Shown piece by piece: positions 13,439 through 34,550 of a stretch of 35,555 bases of DNA (positions within the stretch are counted from its first letter, which is position 1; each line of letters begins with the position of its first letter). The notes under the pieces were generated by a model. The model saw only the letters and a program-made list of their open reading frames with translations. It was not told the origin of the DNA and ran no database searches. Both the position numbers and the translations under genes were made by a program. Source of the DNA: a virus; the IMG/VR virus record IMGVR_UViG_3300020060_000158, positions 1-35,555 of that record. One strand, given 5' to 3'.

Positions 13439-13960
13439 TTATTGGGGGGCGTCTACGCCGTATGCTGCTTTATACAGCGCGGTAAATAATGCGGGATTCT
13501 CTTTCGGCATCTTTTCCACTGCGTCAGGGTCTTCTTCCTGCCATTTTGCAAGCGTCCAATCCTTGCGGCTTTCAGCAACCACAGACGCACCGGCATTAAT
13601 AATATTCAGCACATTAGGCACCTGAGCGGCAGGAACGACAGCAGCGGCAGCAGGAACGACAGCGGCAGCAGGTGCAGCAGCTTCAACAGTTGGCGCAGTA
13701 ATGCCAAGCATTGCTTGCAATACTGTAAAACCGGAACTTTTACCTACTGTAACCAGATGGGCACGTACAGCGGGATCATATGCCTTTTGACTTGCAGTTT
13801 CCATAGCGGCAATGACTGCCTCAACGGCCGTATCGGTAACGGTCGTTTTCTCATTGTTCACGCCATCAAGCTTAGCTTGTATAGCGGCGGTGATTTCGGC
13901 ATCTGTGCTATTTTCAGTCACGCCGGTTAAGCCAAATTTGGCGATTAACTCTTTTTTCAT
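13439..13960 (-). CDS. Nested scaffold protein candidate (internal start)
   Basis: In-frame internal product of the protease gene, 173 aa, beginning MKKELIAKFGLTGVTENSTD. The start lies exactly where the protease domain ends and the helical/Ala-rich scaffold begins, and is preceded by a purine-rich stretch (AAAAAGAAGATAG) about 8 nt upstream. Separate scaffold starts in the same frame are established for Mu gpI/gpZ and lambda C/Nu3. Here it is an inference from layout. Confidence 0.45.
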   Translation of the reverse strand: MKKELIAKFGLTGVTENSTDAEITAAIQAKLDGVNNEKTTVTDTAVEAVIAAMETASQKAYDPAVRAHLVTVGKSSGFTVLQAMLGITAPTVEAAAPAAAVVPAAAAVVPAAQVPNVLNIINAGASVVAESRKDWTLAKWQEEDPDAVEKMPKENPALFTALYKAAYGVDAPQ

Positions 13961-14611
13961 ATTGCTATCTTCTTTTTGGGTTGTGTCTTGATTTGTAGGA
14001 TCGATTAAAAGGGCGGCATAACGATCAAATACAGATTCGATTTCATCATCTGGTGATGGTTTTTCCATCTGCACGACTTCGGCGACTACCGGCTGACCTA
14101 TGCGGGTAATCAGACCGTATTCAAGTGCCTCTTCGGCCGAAAACCAGTGATCCACACCATCGAAAAGACTTAGTATTTCCTTTTCAGGTTTGCCGGTTTT
14201 CTTAGAAAGGGTACGAGTGAAGTTTTTTTCCATTGCCGTCATTAGCTTGACGGTTTCGGAAAACTGCTTGGCGGTTCCTTCCTGCGCGCAGGTAGGACAG
14301 TGAACCATAACAAAGCAGTTGTCAGCGCCTTCGATCTCGTCGGCCTCCTGCATTACTATCCCCATCATGGATGCAGAAACGCCGTCAATAAATACAATGA
14401 TTTTGGATTTGCATCTGCGGATTGAATTTGCGATTACTGTACCTTCAAATACTGACCCGCCATAACAATGAGTGCGTATATGTATAGTATCAAACTTTGC
14501 TGCCATTTCATCAAGCGTGCGGGTAAAGTCTTTACCACTGATCCACCATTCGGATATGTTTCCATAAAATTTAAGTTCTCCGATGTTGCCTTCCAGTTGC
14601 CTGTATTCCAT
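13439..14611 (-). CDS. ClpP-type head maturation protease with scaffold-like C-terminal region
   Basis: 390-aa protein in two parts. Residues 1-175 are a ClpP/S14-type serine protease: GGSVFEG helix start, the nucleophile in DGVSASMMG (Ser81), VMVHCP (His104) and the acidic residue near DHWFSAEEALEYGLI (Asp154). Residues about 200-390 are a charged and then Ala/Pro-rich segment (PAAAVVPAAAAVVPAAQ), typical of a scaffolding region. In lambda (C/Nu3) and Mu (I/Z) the scaffold is produced separately from an internal start in frame; here ATG at 13960 (Met218) would do the same. The protease degrades scaffold and processes the procapsid. First gene of the leftward late operon, starting 146 nt from the divergent TerS gene. 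Confidence 0.85.
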   Translation of the reverse strand: MEYRQLEGNIGELKFYGNISEWWISGKDFTRTLDEMAAKFDTIHIRTHCYGGSVFEGTVIANSIRRCKSKIIVFIDGVSASMMGIVMQEADEIEGADNCFVMVHCPTCAQEGTAKQFSETVKLMTAMEKNFTRTLSKKTGKPEKEILSLFDGVDHWFSAEEALEYGLITRIGQPVVAEVVQMEKPSPDDEIESVFDRYAALLIDPTNQDTTQKEDSNMKKELIAKFGLTGVTENSTDAEITAAIQAKLDGVNNEKTTVTDTAVEAVIAAMETASQKAYDPAVRAHLVTVGKSSGFTVLQAMLGITAPTVEAAAPAAAVVPAAAAVVPAAQVPNVLNIINAGASVVAESRKDWTLAKWQEEDPDAVEKMPKENPALFTALYKAAYGVDAPQ

Positions 14612-17204: not shown

Positions 17205-18461
17205 ATGTTTAACTCAAGAATAGGTAAATCTTACAACCCGCAGAATGCCGCGGTGAAATCGCCATCGAATGACCTGGCTGTCATCAGTCAGCTTGCCGCC
17301 GAGTTTGCAGACATCAGCCGCAAAAATATACAATCGTGGCGTGAGGCTTTGGAAGCCGCCAATAACGCGGAAACTCCAAGATGGTCGCTATTGCAGGATA
17401 TTTACGAATACTTACGCCCTGATGCGCATTTAGGTGCGATGATGGACATTCGCCGGGGGCTGACCGAATCAACAAGGTATTATATCCGCGACAGCAAGAC
17501 CAATAAGGAAGACCCTGTTAAATCTAAGCTTCTTGAACAGGAATGGGTTTTTGACGTGATCGGTGATATGGTGGATCATGCCTTTTATGGCTATACGGTT
17601 CTACAGATTACCGATCCTATCTTAGGTAAATATGACCTTTTGCCGCGCCGGAACTTTATCCCCCAAAAAGACATTCTGCTGCTTGAAGCGGGCGGCGAAA
17701 ATGGGATTGATGTAAATGATCCGGCCTTAAAAGGTTCGATCATCGTGATCAAAAGCCGTGATAAATTCGGCCTGTTAAATGATATTGTGCCAGATCTGAT
17801 CTGGAAGAAAAATGCCCGTCAAGCATGGGCAATGTTCTCGGAGAAATTCGGCATCCCTCTTGTTACTGCGACGACCATTACGCGGGATAAGAAAGAACTC
17901 GACCGTATTGAGGCTATGCTAAAAGCACTGGGTAAAGCTGCTCAGGCGATCTTCCCGACCGGCACCACGATTGACATCAAGGACAGCGCCGCCAAAGGTG
18001 ACCCGTACAAGGTATTTTTAGAGCAGATGACCTATTGTGATGCCCAGATCAGTAAACGCATCCTTGGGGGTACAATGGTGACCGACAACGGATCAAGCCG
18101 TTCACAGGGTGAGGTACATGAGCGCACCATGAACGACATCATTGCAGGCAGGGACAAGAAAAAGGCTGAATTTGGCTTTAACCGCAAAATCATGTTCCTT
18201 TTAAGGGATGTTTTCAGGTTCCCATTTTCCGAAACTGATGAATTTGTTTTTGACCGTTCGGAATCCTTAAACCTGACTGAGCACTGGTCGATCATTTCAA
18301 AGGCCATAGAACTTGGGTATGAGATCGACAACGATTGGCTAAGCAGCACGTTCAATTTCCCAATCACCGGCAAAAAAGAACCAGCTAAGACGGAACCGGA
18401 ACCACCAAAAACGCCGAAAGCAAGCGGACGGCCTGAGGTTGTTGGCAGTTTTTTCGACTAA
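17205..18461 (+). CDS. Portal protein (DUF935, Mu gp29-like)
   Basis: 418-aa portal protein of the DUF935 type, the dodecameric ring through which DNA enters and leaves the head. Seen: LQDIYEYLRPDAHLGAMMDI (an N-terminal helix with DAH), RRGLTESTRYYIRD, DMVDHAFYGYTVLQI, the conserved DLIWKKNARQAWAMFSEKFG and IPLVTATTITRD segments, and SKRILGGTMVTDNGSSRSQG (tunnel loop region). The C terminus (EPPKTPKASGRPEVV) is Pro-rich. A 7-bp GC-rich hairpin follows the stop. Confidence 0.85.
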   Translation: MFNSRIGKSYNPQNAAVKSPSNDLAVISQLAAEFADISRKNIQSWREALEAANNAETPRWSLLQDIYEYLRPDAHLGAMMDIRRGLTESTRYYIRDSKTNKEDPVKSKLLEQEWVFDVIGDMVDHAFYGYTVLQITDPILGKYDLLPRRNFIPQKDILLLEAGGENGIDVNDPALKGSIIVIKSRDKFGLLNDIVPDLIWKKNARQAWAMFSEKFGIPLVTATTITRDKKELDRIEAMLKALGKAAQAIFPTGTTIDIKDSAAKGDPYKVFLEQMTYCDAQISKRILGGTMVTDNGSSRSQGEVHERTMNDIIAGRDKKKAEFGFNRKIMFLLRDVFRFPFSETDEFVFDRSESLNLTEHWSIISKAIELGYEIDNDWLSSTFNFPITGKKEPAKTEPEPPKTPKASGRPEVVGSFFD

Positions 18462-18479
18462 GCCCCGAAGCATCGGGGC
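18462..18479 (+). promoter_or_regulatory. Intercistronic GC hairpin before the gpF start
   Basis: GCCCCGA / TCGGGGC with the 4-nt loop AGCA directly follows the portal stop codon and ends 5 nt before the TTG start of the gpF-like gene. There is no U-tract. It may restrain initiation on the rare start codon or slow decay of the portal mRNA. Confidence 0.4.
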
Positions 18480-18484
18480 AGGTA

Positions 18485-19822
18485 TTGACCAAAAGAAAGC
18501 TTGATGAAGTGTATAGCTGTATGTGTCCGAACTGCGGCGGCTTTAAGGTAAATGCCAAAGGGGATACCGATTTTAGTCTTGACGCTGAAATTGAAAAACT
18601 GATCGACCAGTTTTATAACGGCTATAGTACACGCCTGACAGCCCTCCAAATGGCAAACAAAGTGTCTGCAACTATAGCCGGCGCGGTTATGGAAGGCTAC
18701 GGTAAAGGTGTGTTTGACGTGGATTGGGATAGCCCCGACCGCAAGCAAATAGAACATCTGCAACGCAACGTTTACCAGTTCAGTTTTGCCAAGACACATG
18801 AACAGCTTAAGGCGACCACCTCGGCAATGTATAGCGGTGACCGGATTGTACCGTTTAACGAGTTCCGCGAGATCGCACAGCGGATCAATAACGACTACAC
18901 CAACCGATACCTGCCAGTAGAATATAATACCGGCATAGCATCCGCGCAAATGGGTAGCCGGTGGATACAGTTTCAGGAAGAAAAGGAAACACATCCCTTT
19001 TTGACTTACCGCACAGTTGGTGATGATAATGTCAGGGATTCGCACCGCATTTATGACGGCTTAACTCGGGCTATTGACGACTTTATATGGGATACGGTAT
19101 TTACGCCGAATGGTTGGGGTTGCCGGTGTGATGTCGAGCAAAGTGAAGGCGATGAAGTTACGCCTAACTGGAAAATGAAATTTCCACCCGACAACATCCC
19201 GCCCATGTTCCGCACGAATCTCGCGAAGACAGGACTTATCTTTCCCTCAGATCACCCGTATTTTGACAATTTACCCGACCAGGTGATCAAGGCGGCAGAC
19301 AACAATAATCCTTTCCTATATGAAAAGGTGCATTCAGGAAAAAAGGGCGGCTATGTATATGATAGCGCTTTACACCCAAAATCAAGGGAATGGGAAAACG
19401 AATTAAAGATCGCAAAGGTATTAGCCAATTCGGGCGATAAGGTGGTATTTCTGCCAGAAATCAACCCAAACAGCGAATGGAAGGAAGCGCTAAGGAACGT
19501 CGTATTGCCAGACGGAGTAAAAGACGGCAAAAATGCCGATGTGATCATAGGCGGTAAACAAGTTGTAGAGTTTAAAACCAGTAACGCCAATACAAGAACC
19601 TCAATCAAAGAACTCGTCAAAACAGGCGCGAAACAATCAGATATTGTTTGTGTCCGCATCACTGAAAAGATGGCTTTAGGCGAGGTGAAACGGGCTTTAA
19701 AGGGACAGGTAATGCAAAGCAAGAATTTAACCGAGGTGTGGATCATCGACGTAAAAGACAAGCTGACTAAATATGACCGGTCAGAGATTATGGACTTTTA
19801 CAAAAGCAAAAAGCAGAAATAA
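18485..19822 (+). CDS. Minor head protein gpF fused to CdiA-type nuclease domain
   Basis: 445-aa fusion. Residues 1-255 resemble the Mu gpF/SPP1 gp7 head morphogenesis family: helical core, then YRTVGDDNVRDSHRIYDGLT at about 175-194 and TPNGWGCRCDVE (207-218). The N terminus has CMCPNCGG, a possible zinc knuckle. Residues about 275-445 look like the C-terminal endonuclease domain of CdiA contact-dependent toxins: KNADVIIGGKQVVEFKTSN gives a D352...ExK (Glu362, Lys364) metal-binding core of the PD-(D/E)xK type, with NELKIAKVLAN and WIIDVKDK on either side. Such fusions occur in phage 'polyvalent' head proteins that enter the host with DNA. No immunity gene is seen nearby. Start is TTG at 18485; no ATG/GTG exists in the upstream open stretch. 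Confidence 0.8.
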   Translation: MTKRKLDEVYSCMCPNCGGFKVNAKGDTDFSLDAEIEKLIDQFYNGYSTRLTALQMANKVSATIAGAVMEGYGKGVFDVDWDSPDRKQIEHLQRNVYQFSFAKTHEQLKATTSAMYSGDRIVPFNEFREIAQRINNDYTNRYLPVEYNTGIASAQMGSRWIQFQEEKETHPFLTYRTVGDDNVRDSHRIYDGLTRAIDDFIWDTVFTPNGWGCRCDVEQSEGDEVTPNWKMKFPPDNIPPMFRTNLAKTGLIFPSDHPYFDNLPDQVIKAADNNNPFLYEKVHSGKKGGYVYDSALHPKSREWENELKIAKVLANSGDKVVFLPEINPNSEWKEALRNVVLPDGVKDGKNADVIIGGKQVVEFKTSNANTRTSIKELVKTGAKQSDIVCVRITEKMALGEVKRALKGQVMQSKNLTEVWIIDVKDKLTKYDRSEIMDFYKSKKQK

Positions 19823-19906
19823 AATTCCTGCTTTTTGGGATGTGGAAGATGGGAACCAGTCCGATCAGCCACAGTACAAATATACAAATTAATTGATCAA
19901 TACAAC

Positions 19907-21742
19907 ATGGGTGCAGGAACAGCAAAATTAGAACTCATCTTAGAACTCAGGAATCGTATCAATTCCGGTCTGAGTAGCGCAAGAACACAGCTTAACAGCG
20001 GCATCAGCAGTATGAAAGCCAAGATGGCCGAACTTAAAGGCGGCGCGTCTGAACTGTTTAACGGCATAGCAAGTCAAATACCCGGTGTCGGTGGCATGAT
20101 CGGAAGTCTTGCTAACCCGTATGCGGCGGCAGCGGCCGGCGTACTTGCCCTCGGCGCGGCTTATTTATCAGCCGGTCAAATGGCTGTACAATGGCAGACG
20201 GGCATGGCCAAGGTCAACGTAACCGCGCAGCTTAACCGGCAGAATTTGAAACTACTTAGTGATCAGGTCTTGGATATCGGGGGCCGAAATGCAACACCAT
20301 TGGAAGAAATACCCGATTCGTTTAACAAGGTCGTTTCGGCGGGTCTGAATGCCAAGGATGCGCTCGAGGCTTTTGATCCGATCCTAAAAGGGGCGAAAGC
20401 GGGTTTTACTGATTTGAACACGGTTGCAGCGGCCACCGTATCGACAATGAACAGTACTGGGCTAAAAGATGCCTCGCAGGTGCTTGATGTGCTTTTCGCT
20501 ACCATGAACAAGGGTAACGCTGAATTTGCAGATATTGCTAACTACCTGCCTAAGATCATACCGATGGCAGAAAAGGCGGGGCAAAGTTTCAAGGATACTG
20601 CCGGTGCCTTCGCCTACTTTACCGCGCAGGGCTTCAAATCTGAACAGACAGCGACTTTACTGGAGAACACTTTTAAGGCTATATCTGATCCAAGGATCAC
20701 AGATGGCTTTAAAAAGGTCGGGGTGAACATATACGATTCTGCCGGTAAAGCAAAACCGATGCTTAAAATATTGGATGATCTGCGTGGCAGACTTAGTGGG
20801 CTGTCAAGTCAGGCAAAAAACAAGATATTCCAGACGATCGGGGCAGATGGTGAAACGGTAACGGCGATCGGTGCGATGTTAAAAGATTACGACAAGCTTG
20901 CCGATATCATCAAGTTTACCAACGATTCGCAAGGGCAGCTTAATGAGGCCATGAAAAACGCGGAAACACCGATGGACGCATGGGCGATTATCTTTAACCA
21001 GGTTAAACAGGCCATGATAGAAATTGGTCAAACGAGCCTTCCGATTATTAAGGCCATTGGCACTTATATTCTTGAAACTATCCAGTACTGGAAAGACCTT
21101 TACGCCAATTCTATAGTATTCAGGGATTCCCTTTCAGCGATAGGCGTATATTTTCAATACCTGTGGGCAATAAGTACAATTGGCATCCGGTTTCTGATCA
21201 ACGGGTTCAAAATGATCGGCGATGTGATTAACCGGGTTACTACCTCAATTTTCGGATCGGGTGATGGTTTTGAGAAATGGTACATAAAAGTAAAGCCTTA
21301 CGTGCTTTGGGTTTTCCAGTACATCAAAGCCATCGGGGAAATGATCTATAACATCCAGACCCTAGATTTCTCAGGCGCAATGGATGCCGCAAAAAGCATT
21401 TCAAACGGCAAATCAATAGAAGTAATCCGCAACGAGGTAAATGCCGAGTACAAGGCGCAAAAAGAGGCCAAAAAGGAGGTGCTCGCGCCGATAGGTGGCG
21501 TGAAACCTGATGGCACCGGTGGCAAGACTAAAAACCTGCCAGTAAGCAGCAGCGCAAGCGGAACTACCGGCACCGCCCAACAGGTCAAAAACATCACGAT
21601 CAACATGGATGCAATGGTTAAAGGAGTTAACCTGAGCGCGACAGGCACTGACTTTAAAGGCATGGGCAAAAAGGAATTTGAAGAATATATGCAGAATATG
21701 TTCAAACGGATGATGGGCAATCTGGAAACTTCATACGGGTAG
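19907..21742 (+). CDS. Tail tape measure protein
   Basis: 611 aa from the ATG at 19907 (MGAGTAKLELILELRNRINS). This is a tape measure protein that sets tail length and passes into the cell envelope on infection. It has a long helical N terminus with Ala/Gly repeats, a hydrophobic segment AAAAAGVLALGAAYLSA, a 'phage tail tape measure' core (ADIANYLPKIIPMAEKAGQS, DTAGAFAYFTAQGFKSEQTA), further hydrophobic helices about residues 380-440, and a C-terminal tail domain. An in-frame ATG at 19835 adds 24 residues with non-conserved-looking content. It stands on the opposite strand from the sheath, tube and baseplate genes, an unusual separation in tail gene order. Confidence 0.85.
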   Translation: MGAGTAKLELILELRNRINSGLSSARTQLNSGISSMKAKMAELKGGASELFNGIASQIPGVGGMIGSLANPYAAAAAGVLALGAAYLSAGQMAVQWQTGMAKVNVTAQLNRQNLKLLSDQVLDIGGRNATPLEEIPDSFNKVVSAGLNAKDALEAFDPILKGAKAGFTDLNTVAAATVSTMNSTGLKDASQVLDVLFATMNKGNAEFADIANYLPKIIPMAEKAGQSFKDTAGAFAYFTAQGFKSEQTATLLENTFKAISDPRITDGFKKVGVNIYDSAGKAKPMLKILDDLRGRLSGLSSQAKNKIFQTIGADGETVTAIGAMLKDYDKLADIIKFTNDSQGQLNEAMKNAETPMDAWAIIFNQVKQAMIEIGQTSLPIIKAIGTYILETIQYWKDLYANSIVFRDSLSAIGVYFQYLWAISTIGIRFLINGFKMIGDVINRVTTSIFGSGDGFEKWYIKVKPYVLWVFQYIKAIGEMIYNIQTLDFSGAMDAAKSISNGKSIEVIRNEVNAEYKAQKEAKKEVLAPIGGVKPDGTGGKTKNLPVSSSASGTTGTAQQVKNITINMDAMVKGVNLSATGTDFKGMGKKEFEEYMQNMFKRMMGNLETSYG

Positions 21743-32468: not shown

Positions 32469-33644
32469 TTAAATAAAATCGTTAATGTCTATTTTGCTGT
32501 TGATGTAGTCTTGTTGTGTTTGCAGTTTGCTTTTTTCAGCGATACGCTCGTCACGTCTTGTGTGCTTCGCTTCCAATACCTTAACTGATTGCTGAATGCG
32601 GGCGGCATTTCTATTGTCTTTGTGCTGACCTTCGCTATCAACGATCAGTAGTTTTCCGAGGGTTTCTTCTATCCGAGGGTTACGAAGCATCAGACCGTTC
32701 AATGCATCGAAATCGCTTTGTTGAACTTGCAGGATGTCGTCGATCAGTGTTCTGTTGTGTTGGGTAATTCGTGCGAGTTCAGGAGCGTCACCGGCTGTCC
32801 TTTCAGCGAGTGCCATTGGTTGCACATACTTGTCGGTAAGCATGAACTTTAATGATCCGTCCGTACTGACAGCTAAAGCCTGTGACATATCTGCGGGATC
32901 GTATTTTATGATCCAGTCTTCATTCCTGTGCATCCTGAATTGTGGATCGAAGCAATCGAAAGTAAATTTCTGCTTGTTAATTTGCAGTATGACACCCGGA
33001 CCGTTCAGCCGGTTTGTGTCGCCGGAAGTTTCACCAAGGTGCGACAGGTATTCCATGTGCGACCAGGTTAACTTTTTGTCGTCCGAAAGAAGTGCATATG
33101 CTTCGACATATGCCGATTTCTTAGATGCCCGTTCCGCTTCGATCATCTTTACGATCTGGTCAACACAACCTTGTTCATCGGGGAAAGTGTGACGAATCTT
33201 ATTGCTGTATTCTTCATTCGGCTGATTCTCTTTTCTTGCCTTCATACCGAATCCAGACCAATTAGGCTGCAACTGGCAGTAGGTTTTATTGAGGTGCTTG
33301 AAATAAGGCTCAATAACTTTGGCTTTCGCATTCTTTACACGGGCGGGGGTGTATCGCTCAGACAATGCCTCGTAAAACGGCGTTAAGGTCTTCTTGTTGT
33401 AATTATCTGTTTGCAGTTGGTACACATGGTGCTTTGAACCGAACAGTTCCTCTGTGTGTGTTATCGCGTTTCTAAACGCTTGCCGGATCAGCGCCGGTGT
33501 CTCATGAGTACCGATTGCATAGCCAACAGGGTATTTGTTGCATGGATCAAGAACGACCACCATGCTTAGGCGGTGGTGATATTCGGTTACGTTACGGATG
33601 TTGCCTTCCCTGTCTTTGCGCTCAACCGTTTTTTGGTACATCAA
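32469..33644 (-). pseudogene. MuA-type transposase, C-terminal part (catalytic D2 and E)
   Basis: Second piece of the transposase, read in the same frame as the N-terminal piece after an in-frame TAA. It carries MVVVLDPCNKYPVGYAIGTH, the second catalytic Asp in YQLQTDNYNKK (about Asp80) and Glu in AKVIEPYFKHLNKTYCQLQP (about Glu112), then NWSGFGMKARK, SNKIRHTFPDEQG and a long C-terminal region with helical ending. Possible re-initiation at TTG 33644 or ATG 33641, both right after the stop, would give a fragment without the first catalytic Asp. Marked as part of a broken gene; readthrough or sequencing error are alternatives. Confidence 0.8.
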
Positions 33645-33647
33645 TTA
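33645..33647 (-). other. In-frame ochre codon in transposase
   Basis: Minus-strand reading GAT GTA TAA TTG ATG TAC shows TAA in the continuous reading frame of the transposase; both flanking ORFs are in this frame, so there is no indel. A single G-to-T change in GAA (Glu) would make it; CAA or AAA are other possible parents. Confidence 0.85.
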
Positions 33648-34550
33648 TACATCCCAACCATCAGCGGTCCAGTAAAGCAATGGCGCAGAAGGCGCACGTC
33701 TTTTAACCTGCATAGCGTGGTTGTTGTCATGGTTTCCTTTACCGCGCGATCCTGCGTCAGTATAGATTTGCCATTCGTCTCGTTTGTTGGCGACAGTGCC
33801 TTTGGTTATTTTCTTCCAACCGGCTACCTCGGCAGTCATGTTGTACAAATTCATTACCTGAACATCATCGAAGTTCCTACCCATTGCCATGATCCGGCGC
33901 AATGCCCCTTCCTGCTCGCTTTCAACCACCTTAGCGGCATTATCGTTACAAAGCTTTCCGCTGATTAGCGAAACATAACCGAGTTGCTTGTACTTGCTTA
34001 TTTTGCCTCTTAGTGCACGATCCCCCGGCGGGAGCTTCCAACCCCATTTAGCTTGAAGTGTTGCCAGTACATCAGTAAGATTTTTGAGTGATCCTGTTTG
34101 TTTAGCTGACCCACCAAGCGCAGACCGCCATGCTTTTGCATCGCTTTGCAGTTTGATTATGGCGTTTAATACTACGGCGGTAGAAGTGTATTCCCTGATG
34201 GTGTTTTGTTTCAGGTGTTCGCCATTTGGTAATGTATAAGTTTCAAAGAAACTTAGTGCTTTATAATCGTGCTTTAAAAGGGCTTTAATAGGTTGTTGCT
34301 GCGCGGTCTTTACCACATCTTTAAACTTGATGGCAACTGACCTTTTTACCTCCATTGGAAGCAATTCGAAATCATAAAGGGCTTCCGTTCCCCTGCAACC
34401 TGGCCTTACTGTTTTTAACTTTCCTGAGTTTTTAAAATTCTGGTAATCATACTGTGATATGAAAGCGTCGTCGCCCACAGTGTTCGGCTGTACGCTCTTA
34501 TTAACTAATTCGCTGTACGAGATACAAAGAGTGTTGTTATAAAATTCCAT
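33645..34550 (-). pseudogene. MuA-type transposase, N-terminal part (ends after catalytic D1)
   Basis: 301-aa product of the first half of the transposase. The N-terminal DNA-binding region (residues about 1-230) contains VMNLYNMTAEVAGWKKITKG and TVANKRDEW. The last residues are LLYWTADGWDV, where Asp297 corresponds to the first Asp of the DDE triad. The gene then hits TAA, followed in the same frame by Leu-Met-Tyr-Gln-Lys-Thr. In related enzymes the segment after DGWD runs on directly (remembered pattern DGWDVEL-YQKT). The two halves together give about 693 residues, close to MuA (663). Starts 2 nt after the Ner-like stop. Confidence 0.85.

Follow-up and report, generated by a model that had tools for sequence, protein, structure and literature searches.

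The locus described here lies in the head gene module of IMG/VR virus record IMGVR_UViG_3300020060_000158, and the whole stretch analyzed, 35,555 bases, is referred to below as the window. The module is Mu-like and comprises terminase, gp36-like adaptor, portal, MuF, tape measure, and neck genes, and MuA/MuB-type transposition genes are found on the minus strand. The MuA-type transposase frame (32469–34550, minus strand) is split into two ORFs by one in-frame TAA (33645–33647), and the two ORFs match positions 1–284 and 298–563 of phrog_310. This transposase is a single annotated gene in Elizabethkingia phage TCUEAP3, and the TAA may be a mutation, an assembly error, or the sign of a split protein, which are indistinguishable here. 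The relatives of the window are Bacteroidota phages, including Winoviridae such as Peternella and pippi8-1, and the phage that hosts the gene is a Mu-like Bacteroidota phage. Loci for comparison were gathered via the MuF part of the protein (80 viral loci and 33 from bacterial genomes) and via the nuclease-like domain (another 36). A direct tblastn search with the nuclease domain against phages and plasmids gave no useful match, and an initial locus scan using the single window protein gave none.

The ORF at 18485–19822 (plus strand, 445 codons) is as noted in the preliminary description, and its gpF-like N-terminal half is confirmed by the match of residues 127–217 (18863–19135) to Phage_Mu_F (PF04233, 2.7e-13), which identifies a MuF domain of the gpF/SPP1 gp7-like type. 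The earlier designation of the product as a minor head protein holds for this MuF/gpF identity, but the product is probably not a free protein and is instead a -1 frame extension of the portal. Downstream of the MuF domain, the HPYF motif (19253–19264) marks the boundary beyond which the C-termini of relatives differ. The next gene encodes the tape measure (19835–21742, plus strand; PF10145, 8e-40). The tape measure sits between the MuF and neck genes both in the window and in its nearest relative, L009 (5401–7329, 40% identical); in L003, L004, L005, and L007, all annotated relatives, the neck gene either comes next after MuF or is separated from it by one or two small ORFs.

The C-terminal region of the ORF had been proposed to carry a CdiA C-terminal-type nuclease domain with D352, E362, and K364 in its active site. 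That numbering is correct, and profile, fold, and conserved active site together bear out a PD-(D/E)xK nuclease domain of the CdiA-CT (Bp1026b) type at residues 283–445 (19331–19819, plus strand), with E306 as a further active-site residue. The match of the window to Pfam CdiA_C (PF18451) is 9e-4 with the whole protein and 1.4e-4 with the domain alone, a score under Pfam's own cut-off, and 20 of 23 members of the domain family match the same profile (best 5e-14). A profile built from 23 relatives has a single significant match in the PDB, 4g6v (E 6.3e-6), which is the CdiA-CT toxin, a tRNase, of Burkholderia pseudomallei 1026b. The predicted domain model (pLDDT 92.7) shows the same nuclease fold, with a VIA Z of 12.9 to 4g6v (rmsd 2.5 over 120 aligned residues; next entry Z 6.3) and a Foldseek value of 4.7e-6 for the same pair. 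BFVD also contains phage proteins with this fold, annotated either as CDI toxin-like or as minor capsid protein. Additionally, phrog_13257, a family of head maturation proteases, matches window residues 344–424, and judging by this sequence match a similar domain may be carried on a head protease as well. The components of a CDI system (CdiB transporter, CdiA stalk, CdiI immunity protein) were absent from the ORFs scanned in the window. The C-terminal domain is a predicted CdiA-CT-type metal-dependent nuclease, most likely a tRNase, with tRNA as its presumed substrate.

The bare motif [DE]x8-10[DE]xK was rejected as evidence for this assignment; when the domain is shuffled, 68% of the copies still contain it, and it is uninformative for that reason. 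Because the motif is weak alone, the loci of relatives were gathered, and the set D/E352, D/E362, and K364 is retained in 46 of 54 homologous domains, the window included, which places the active site beyond chance. E362 and D352 are also the two most conserved polar columns of the domain. The domain is under purifying selection (dN/dS 0.08–0.57 in the eight pairs for which dS could be estimated), and in most pairs tested it evolves faster than the MuF part. An active-site residue is missing in eight of the 54 CdiA_C-like domains (L003, L004, L089, L093, L099, L101, L118, and L154), and purifying selection persists in the L003/L093 pair, where such a residue has been lost (dN/dS 0.12). It could accordingly be argued that the nuclease fold is kept for a structural role, in which the domain binds nucleic acid at the portal; such a role has been proposed for the Mu gpF C-terminal domain, which is reported to be inactive (PMC5512222). 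We regard this as unlikely, given that the D/E...D/ExK set is intact in the window and in the large majority of homologues. Moreover, the lysine used by Bp1026b occupies a different position, and a homologue lacking K364 is therefore not necessarily inactive.

Beyond HPY[FY], the relatives have a CdiA_C-like domain, a metalloprotease-like domain (HExxH), a Gln-deamidase, another domain, or none, and MuF parts with and without the metalloprotease-type C-terminus are 96–99% identical (L082/L083, L055/L058). In Flavobacterium phage FPSV-S27 (L006, 4777–5691), MuF is short, and a Dcm-type methylase gene comes after it, at the place taken in other relatives by the C-terminal domain or small ORF. 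Such variable C-termini behind a conserved MuF, the sharing of the domain family with CdiA toxins, and the MuA/MuB genes of the phage would all suit a classic MuF polymorphic toxin, in which virions favor lysogens over non-lysogens and an immunity gene is located elsewhere in the phage or host. The distribution of adjacent small ORFs makes this reading doubtful. The lack of an immunity gene beside the window ORF, already remarked on in the preliminary description, is evident from the 12 nt gap to the tape measure gene, with no small ORF between, and it extends across the sub-family. A small ORF lies directly downstream in just three of 47 CdiA_C-type relatives and in one of 47 with no C-terminal domain, as opposed to 14 of 14 with the metalloprotease type, a comparison in which phage lineages are mixed. 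Within the same lineage, the small ORF is found with the metalloprotease C-terminus (L055; L028) and is absent without it (L057, L058; L034, L039). The ORF behind the metalloprotease-type MuF (L005, L011, L017, L023, L035, L057, and others) is 55–75 aa long, often overlaps MuF by 4 nt, and is a candidate immunity or chaperone gene. The sole small gene enriched near the CdiA_C-type domain (60–70 aa, 19 of 30 loci), helix-turn-helix-like by eye, was rejected as an immunity gene; it also stands beside a domain-less MuF (L100) and is absent from the window.

The junction between the portal and MuF genes suggests how the nuclease is produced. The portal gene (17205–18461, plus strand) is Mu gp29-like, matching Portal_Mu (PF06074, 1.6e-61) and phrog_113, and it occupies the zero frame up to its TAA stop codon at 18459–18461. 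Its 3′ end reads AGT TTT TTC GAC TAA and is followed immediately by a hairpin. Within positions 18449–18479 lie the slippery heptamer T_TTT_TTC, in register with the portal gene (18449–18455), a 6-nt spacer, GACTAA, that includes the portal stop codon (18456–18461), and a perfect, GC-rich hairpin of seven pairs (18462–18479; arms GCCCCGA at 18462–18468 and TCGGGGC at 18473–18479, loop AGCA; folding z = -3.1). A -1 slip at the heptamer yields FF|RLSPEASGQVLTKRKLDE, which is exactly the MuF frame, and the -1 frame is open through the overlap. The frame entered after the slip, RLSPEASGQVLTKRKLDE..., runs from 18455 to 19822 (plus strand) and contains 455 codons, which together with 417 portal codons predict an 872-aa portal-MuF-nuclease fusion. 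The window has the components of an X_XXY_YYZ frameshift site, namely a zero-frame heptamer, an open -1 frame, and a downstream covarying hairpin.

Similar junctions are found in the relatives. At 44 of 45 unfused CdiA_C-type junctions, MuF is in the -1 frame and an A6R or T6H heptamer is in register, and at another six CdiA_C-type loci (L002, L084, L101, and L143–L145) portal and MuF are fused in frame. Slip-site junctions occur in three of 47 relatives with another or no C-terminus (Fisher 2e-21, a value confounded by lineage); L097 and L100 have the slip site without the nuclease domain. Across portal genes, the density of in-register heptamers over the last 40 codons is 46 times that of the remainder. 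At the T-type sites the hairpin stem begins 4–6 nt past the heptamer (18 of 18 examined). Most A-type sites have a conserved run of 10–11 A and no strong hairpin, and transcript slippage is possible there for this reason. Among isolated phages, Bacteroides phage BKO1-TP4 (L007) has a T-type site and Winogradskyella phage Peternella_1 (L003) an A-type one. Although runs of this length would suffice for RNA polymerase slippage, it is very improbable that slippage of the polymerase, rather than ribosomal frameshifting, gives rise to the extension in the window, where the run is six T followed by C and the covarying hairpin lies at the spacing of ribosomal -1 frameshift sites.

The TTG codon at 18485–18487, taken as the start by the ORF finder, is the first start-like codon of a frame that stays open for 16 codons upstream into the portal gene. 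It lies 5 nt past the hairpin and 23 nt past the portal stop codon, and the same TTG just past the hairpin is present in L009, so that initiation at this codon is possible in the window and L009. A free MuF-nuclease could then be made from TTG 18485 by termination-reinitiation, with the hairpin merely coupling it to portal translation, and in relatives with no C-terminal domain or the metalloprotease type MuF does begin at the portal stop codon without a slip site. This explanation leaves unaccounted for the in-register heptamer and the conserved -1 frame translation that precedes the TTG (FFRLSP). Furthermore, at many related loci the MuF frame has no ATG, GTG, or TTG until 60–450 nt (up to 453) into conserved MuF, and the in-frame fusions are likewise not explained. 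In Elizabethkingia phage TCUEAP3, the annotated MuF start falls 240 nt into the conserved MuF region. The true start of the protein is probably not TTG 18485, and reinitiation at this codon is considered improbable.

The association of the frameshift signal with this gene pair was also examined by scanning IMG/VR for TTTTTTCGAYTRAGCCCC, a DNA motif that carries no protein information, and at least 120 sites were obtained. Among the 120 matches listed, the -1 frame matches MuF in 113 and the zero frame matches the portal in 117. The seven listed sites without a MuF match lie on contigs that end within 216 nt, and of the three listed sites without a portal match two have less than 130 nt upstream, and in the third (L184) a stop lies a short way before the site. 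By sequence, all 120 sites among the matches listed are consistent with a portal/MuF junction, and contig ends account for every exception but the one with the upstream stop. The complementary arm GGGGC is found downstream in 94 of 103 distinct sites among the matches listed, and at these 94 sites the arms pair at position 6 in 94% (45% when shuffled) and at position 7 in 85% (49% when shuffled). Where the listed matches encode RLSP-x-DY-x-GLH, the paired codons are TCx/GAG (22), AGx/CTG (9), ACx/GTG (8), and GCx/GCG (5). TCx serine goes with GAG and AGx serine with CTG, and RNA pairing therefore links two synonymous serine codon boxes to two different amino acids. The C-terminal domains of the 78 MuF frames that follow the site in the listed matches include CdiA_C (21), LPD3 (15), Gln-deamidase (6), and PBECR2 (2); LPD3 is a domain of large polyvalent proteins. 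The site also occurs without any effector (L014, L097, and L100). Recoding is not bound to one effector, because the domains behind the site are varied.

Based on the observed domain identity, active site, covarying recoding signal, absence of starts in relatives, and natural fusions, it is quite probable that programmed -1 frameshifting yields the nuclease as a minority portal-MuF-nuclease fusion, which serves as an effector in the next cell. The portal gene would then be recoded, with the present gene as its second half. Most ribosomes would terminate at the portal stop codon to give ordinary portal subunits, and a minority, helped by the hairpin 6 nt downstream, would slip by -1 on T_TTT_TTC into the MuF frame to give the 872-aa fusion. 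The portal ring has 12 subunits, and a minority product would mean that few subunits per ring bear the nuclease, leaving each virion with a few copies at its DNA gateway. The nuclease would act in the next infected cell, possibly once the head protease (13439–14611) frees it; the need of a portal-tethered domain for release or ejection in some way is a point against the model. The frameshift level, the copy number, release, delivery, tRNA as substrate, and the target are parts of the model that we infer. Since no immunity gene is adjacent, the nuclease seems better viewed as an infection effector than as a competition toxin from which lysogens are protected, and a sub-family without the adjacent immunity gene expected by the toxin model points to use during infection. 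It also seems reasonably likely that many related Mu-like phages produce a small fraction of the portal as portal-MuF-effector fusions through programmed -1 frameshifting, or at A-runs possibly by transcript slippage, and in this way set the effector count per virion. The frameshift level would then set the portal-borne number of CdiA-type nuclease, glutamine deamidase, LPD3, or PBECR2 effectors.

MuF polymorphic toxins are described as a MuF domain with a variable C-terminal toxin domain in temperate phages (Jamet 2017, PMC5576092), a CdiA Bp1026b-type domain (cd13442) is listed among their toxin domains, and a small putative immunity ORF is found behind 89.4% of them (PMC5576092). The window resembles these toxins in its MuF domain, its toxin-shared variable C-terminus, its place in the head gene module, and its temperate phage; it differs in that its sub-family is without the downstream immunity ORF, which is usual though not universal. 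In view of the BFVD proteins with the same fold and the listing in PMC5576092, the nuclease domain and its fusion to MuF are already known, and what is newer is probably the production by frameshift. The preliminary description had also placed the protein among head proteins fused to effector domains and presumed to be injected with DNA. The fusion type is a known one, as seen in PMC5576092 and PMC5512222; packaging, injection, toxicity, and target are inferred. For the MuF toxins Bxa and Apk2 (PMC11699363), the Bxa paper gives the role of MuF toxins as unknown and capsid targeting as a hypothesis. Expression of MuF toxins by a portal frameshift was not found in the available portions of PMC5576092 or PMC11699363. 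A portal-MuF frameshift was likewise not found by key term in the available parts of the recoding review (PMC5009743) or the PRFect paper, the latter only mentioning MuF-like genes among predicted fusions. No description was found in the open-access literature, which does not prove priority. If the toxin is indeed part of the portal, there would be a concrete answer to how, and how many, MuF toxins enter virions. Frameshifting would also explain the truncated or odd annotated starts of these genes, and MuF toxin genes cloned from the annotated start may miss their natural N-terminal partner.

The domain is similar to CdiA-CT of Bp1026b (4G6V) in fold, profile, and acidic active-site residues, but its lysine is at the canonical ExK place, whereas that of 1026b is displaced. 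In contrast to CdiA, the carrier is a phage head protein, with no CdiA stalk, CdiB, or CdiI. In polyvalent proteins, MuF and portal domains are fused to effectors thought to be injected (Iyer 2017, PMC5512222); those fusions are read as single genes, as opposed to the frameshifted portal-MuF here. Programmed -1 frameshifting in phages is used for tail assembly chaperones and for the major head protein of phages A2 and T3 (PMC5009743). As in those cases, an X_XXY_YYZ site near the 3′ end of a structural gene would give a minority extended protein. The protein extended here is the portal, however, and what it gains is MuF, either alone or together with an effector domain. In retroviral Gag-Pol, a frameshift-extended structural protein ensures that few enzyme copies are loaded per particle, and the portal fusion may be likened to this mode of loading by analogy only, with no common origin implied.
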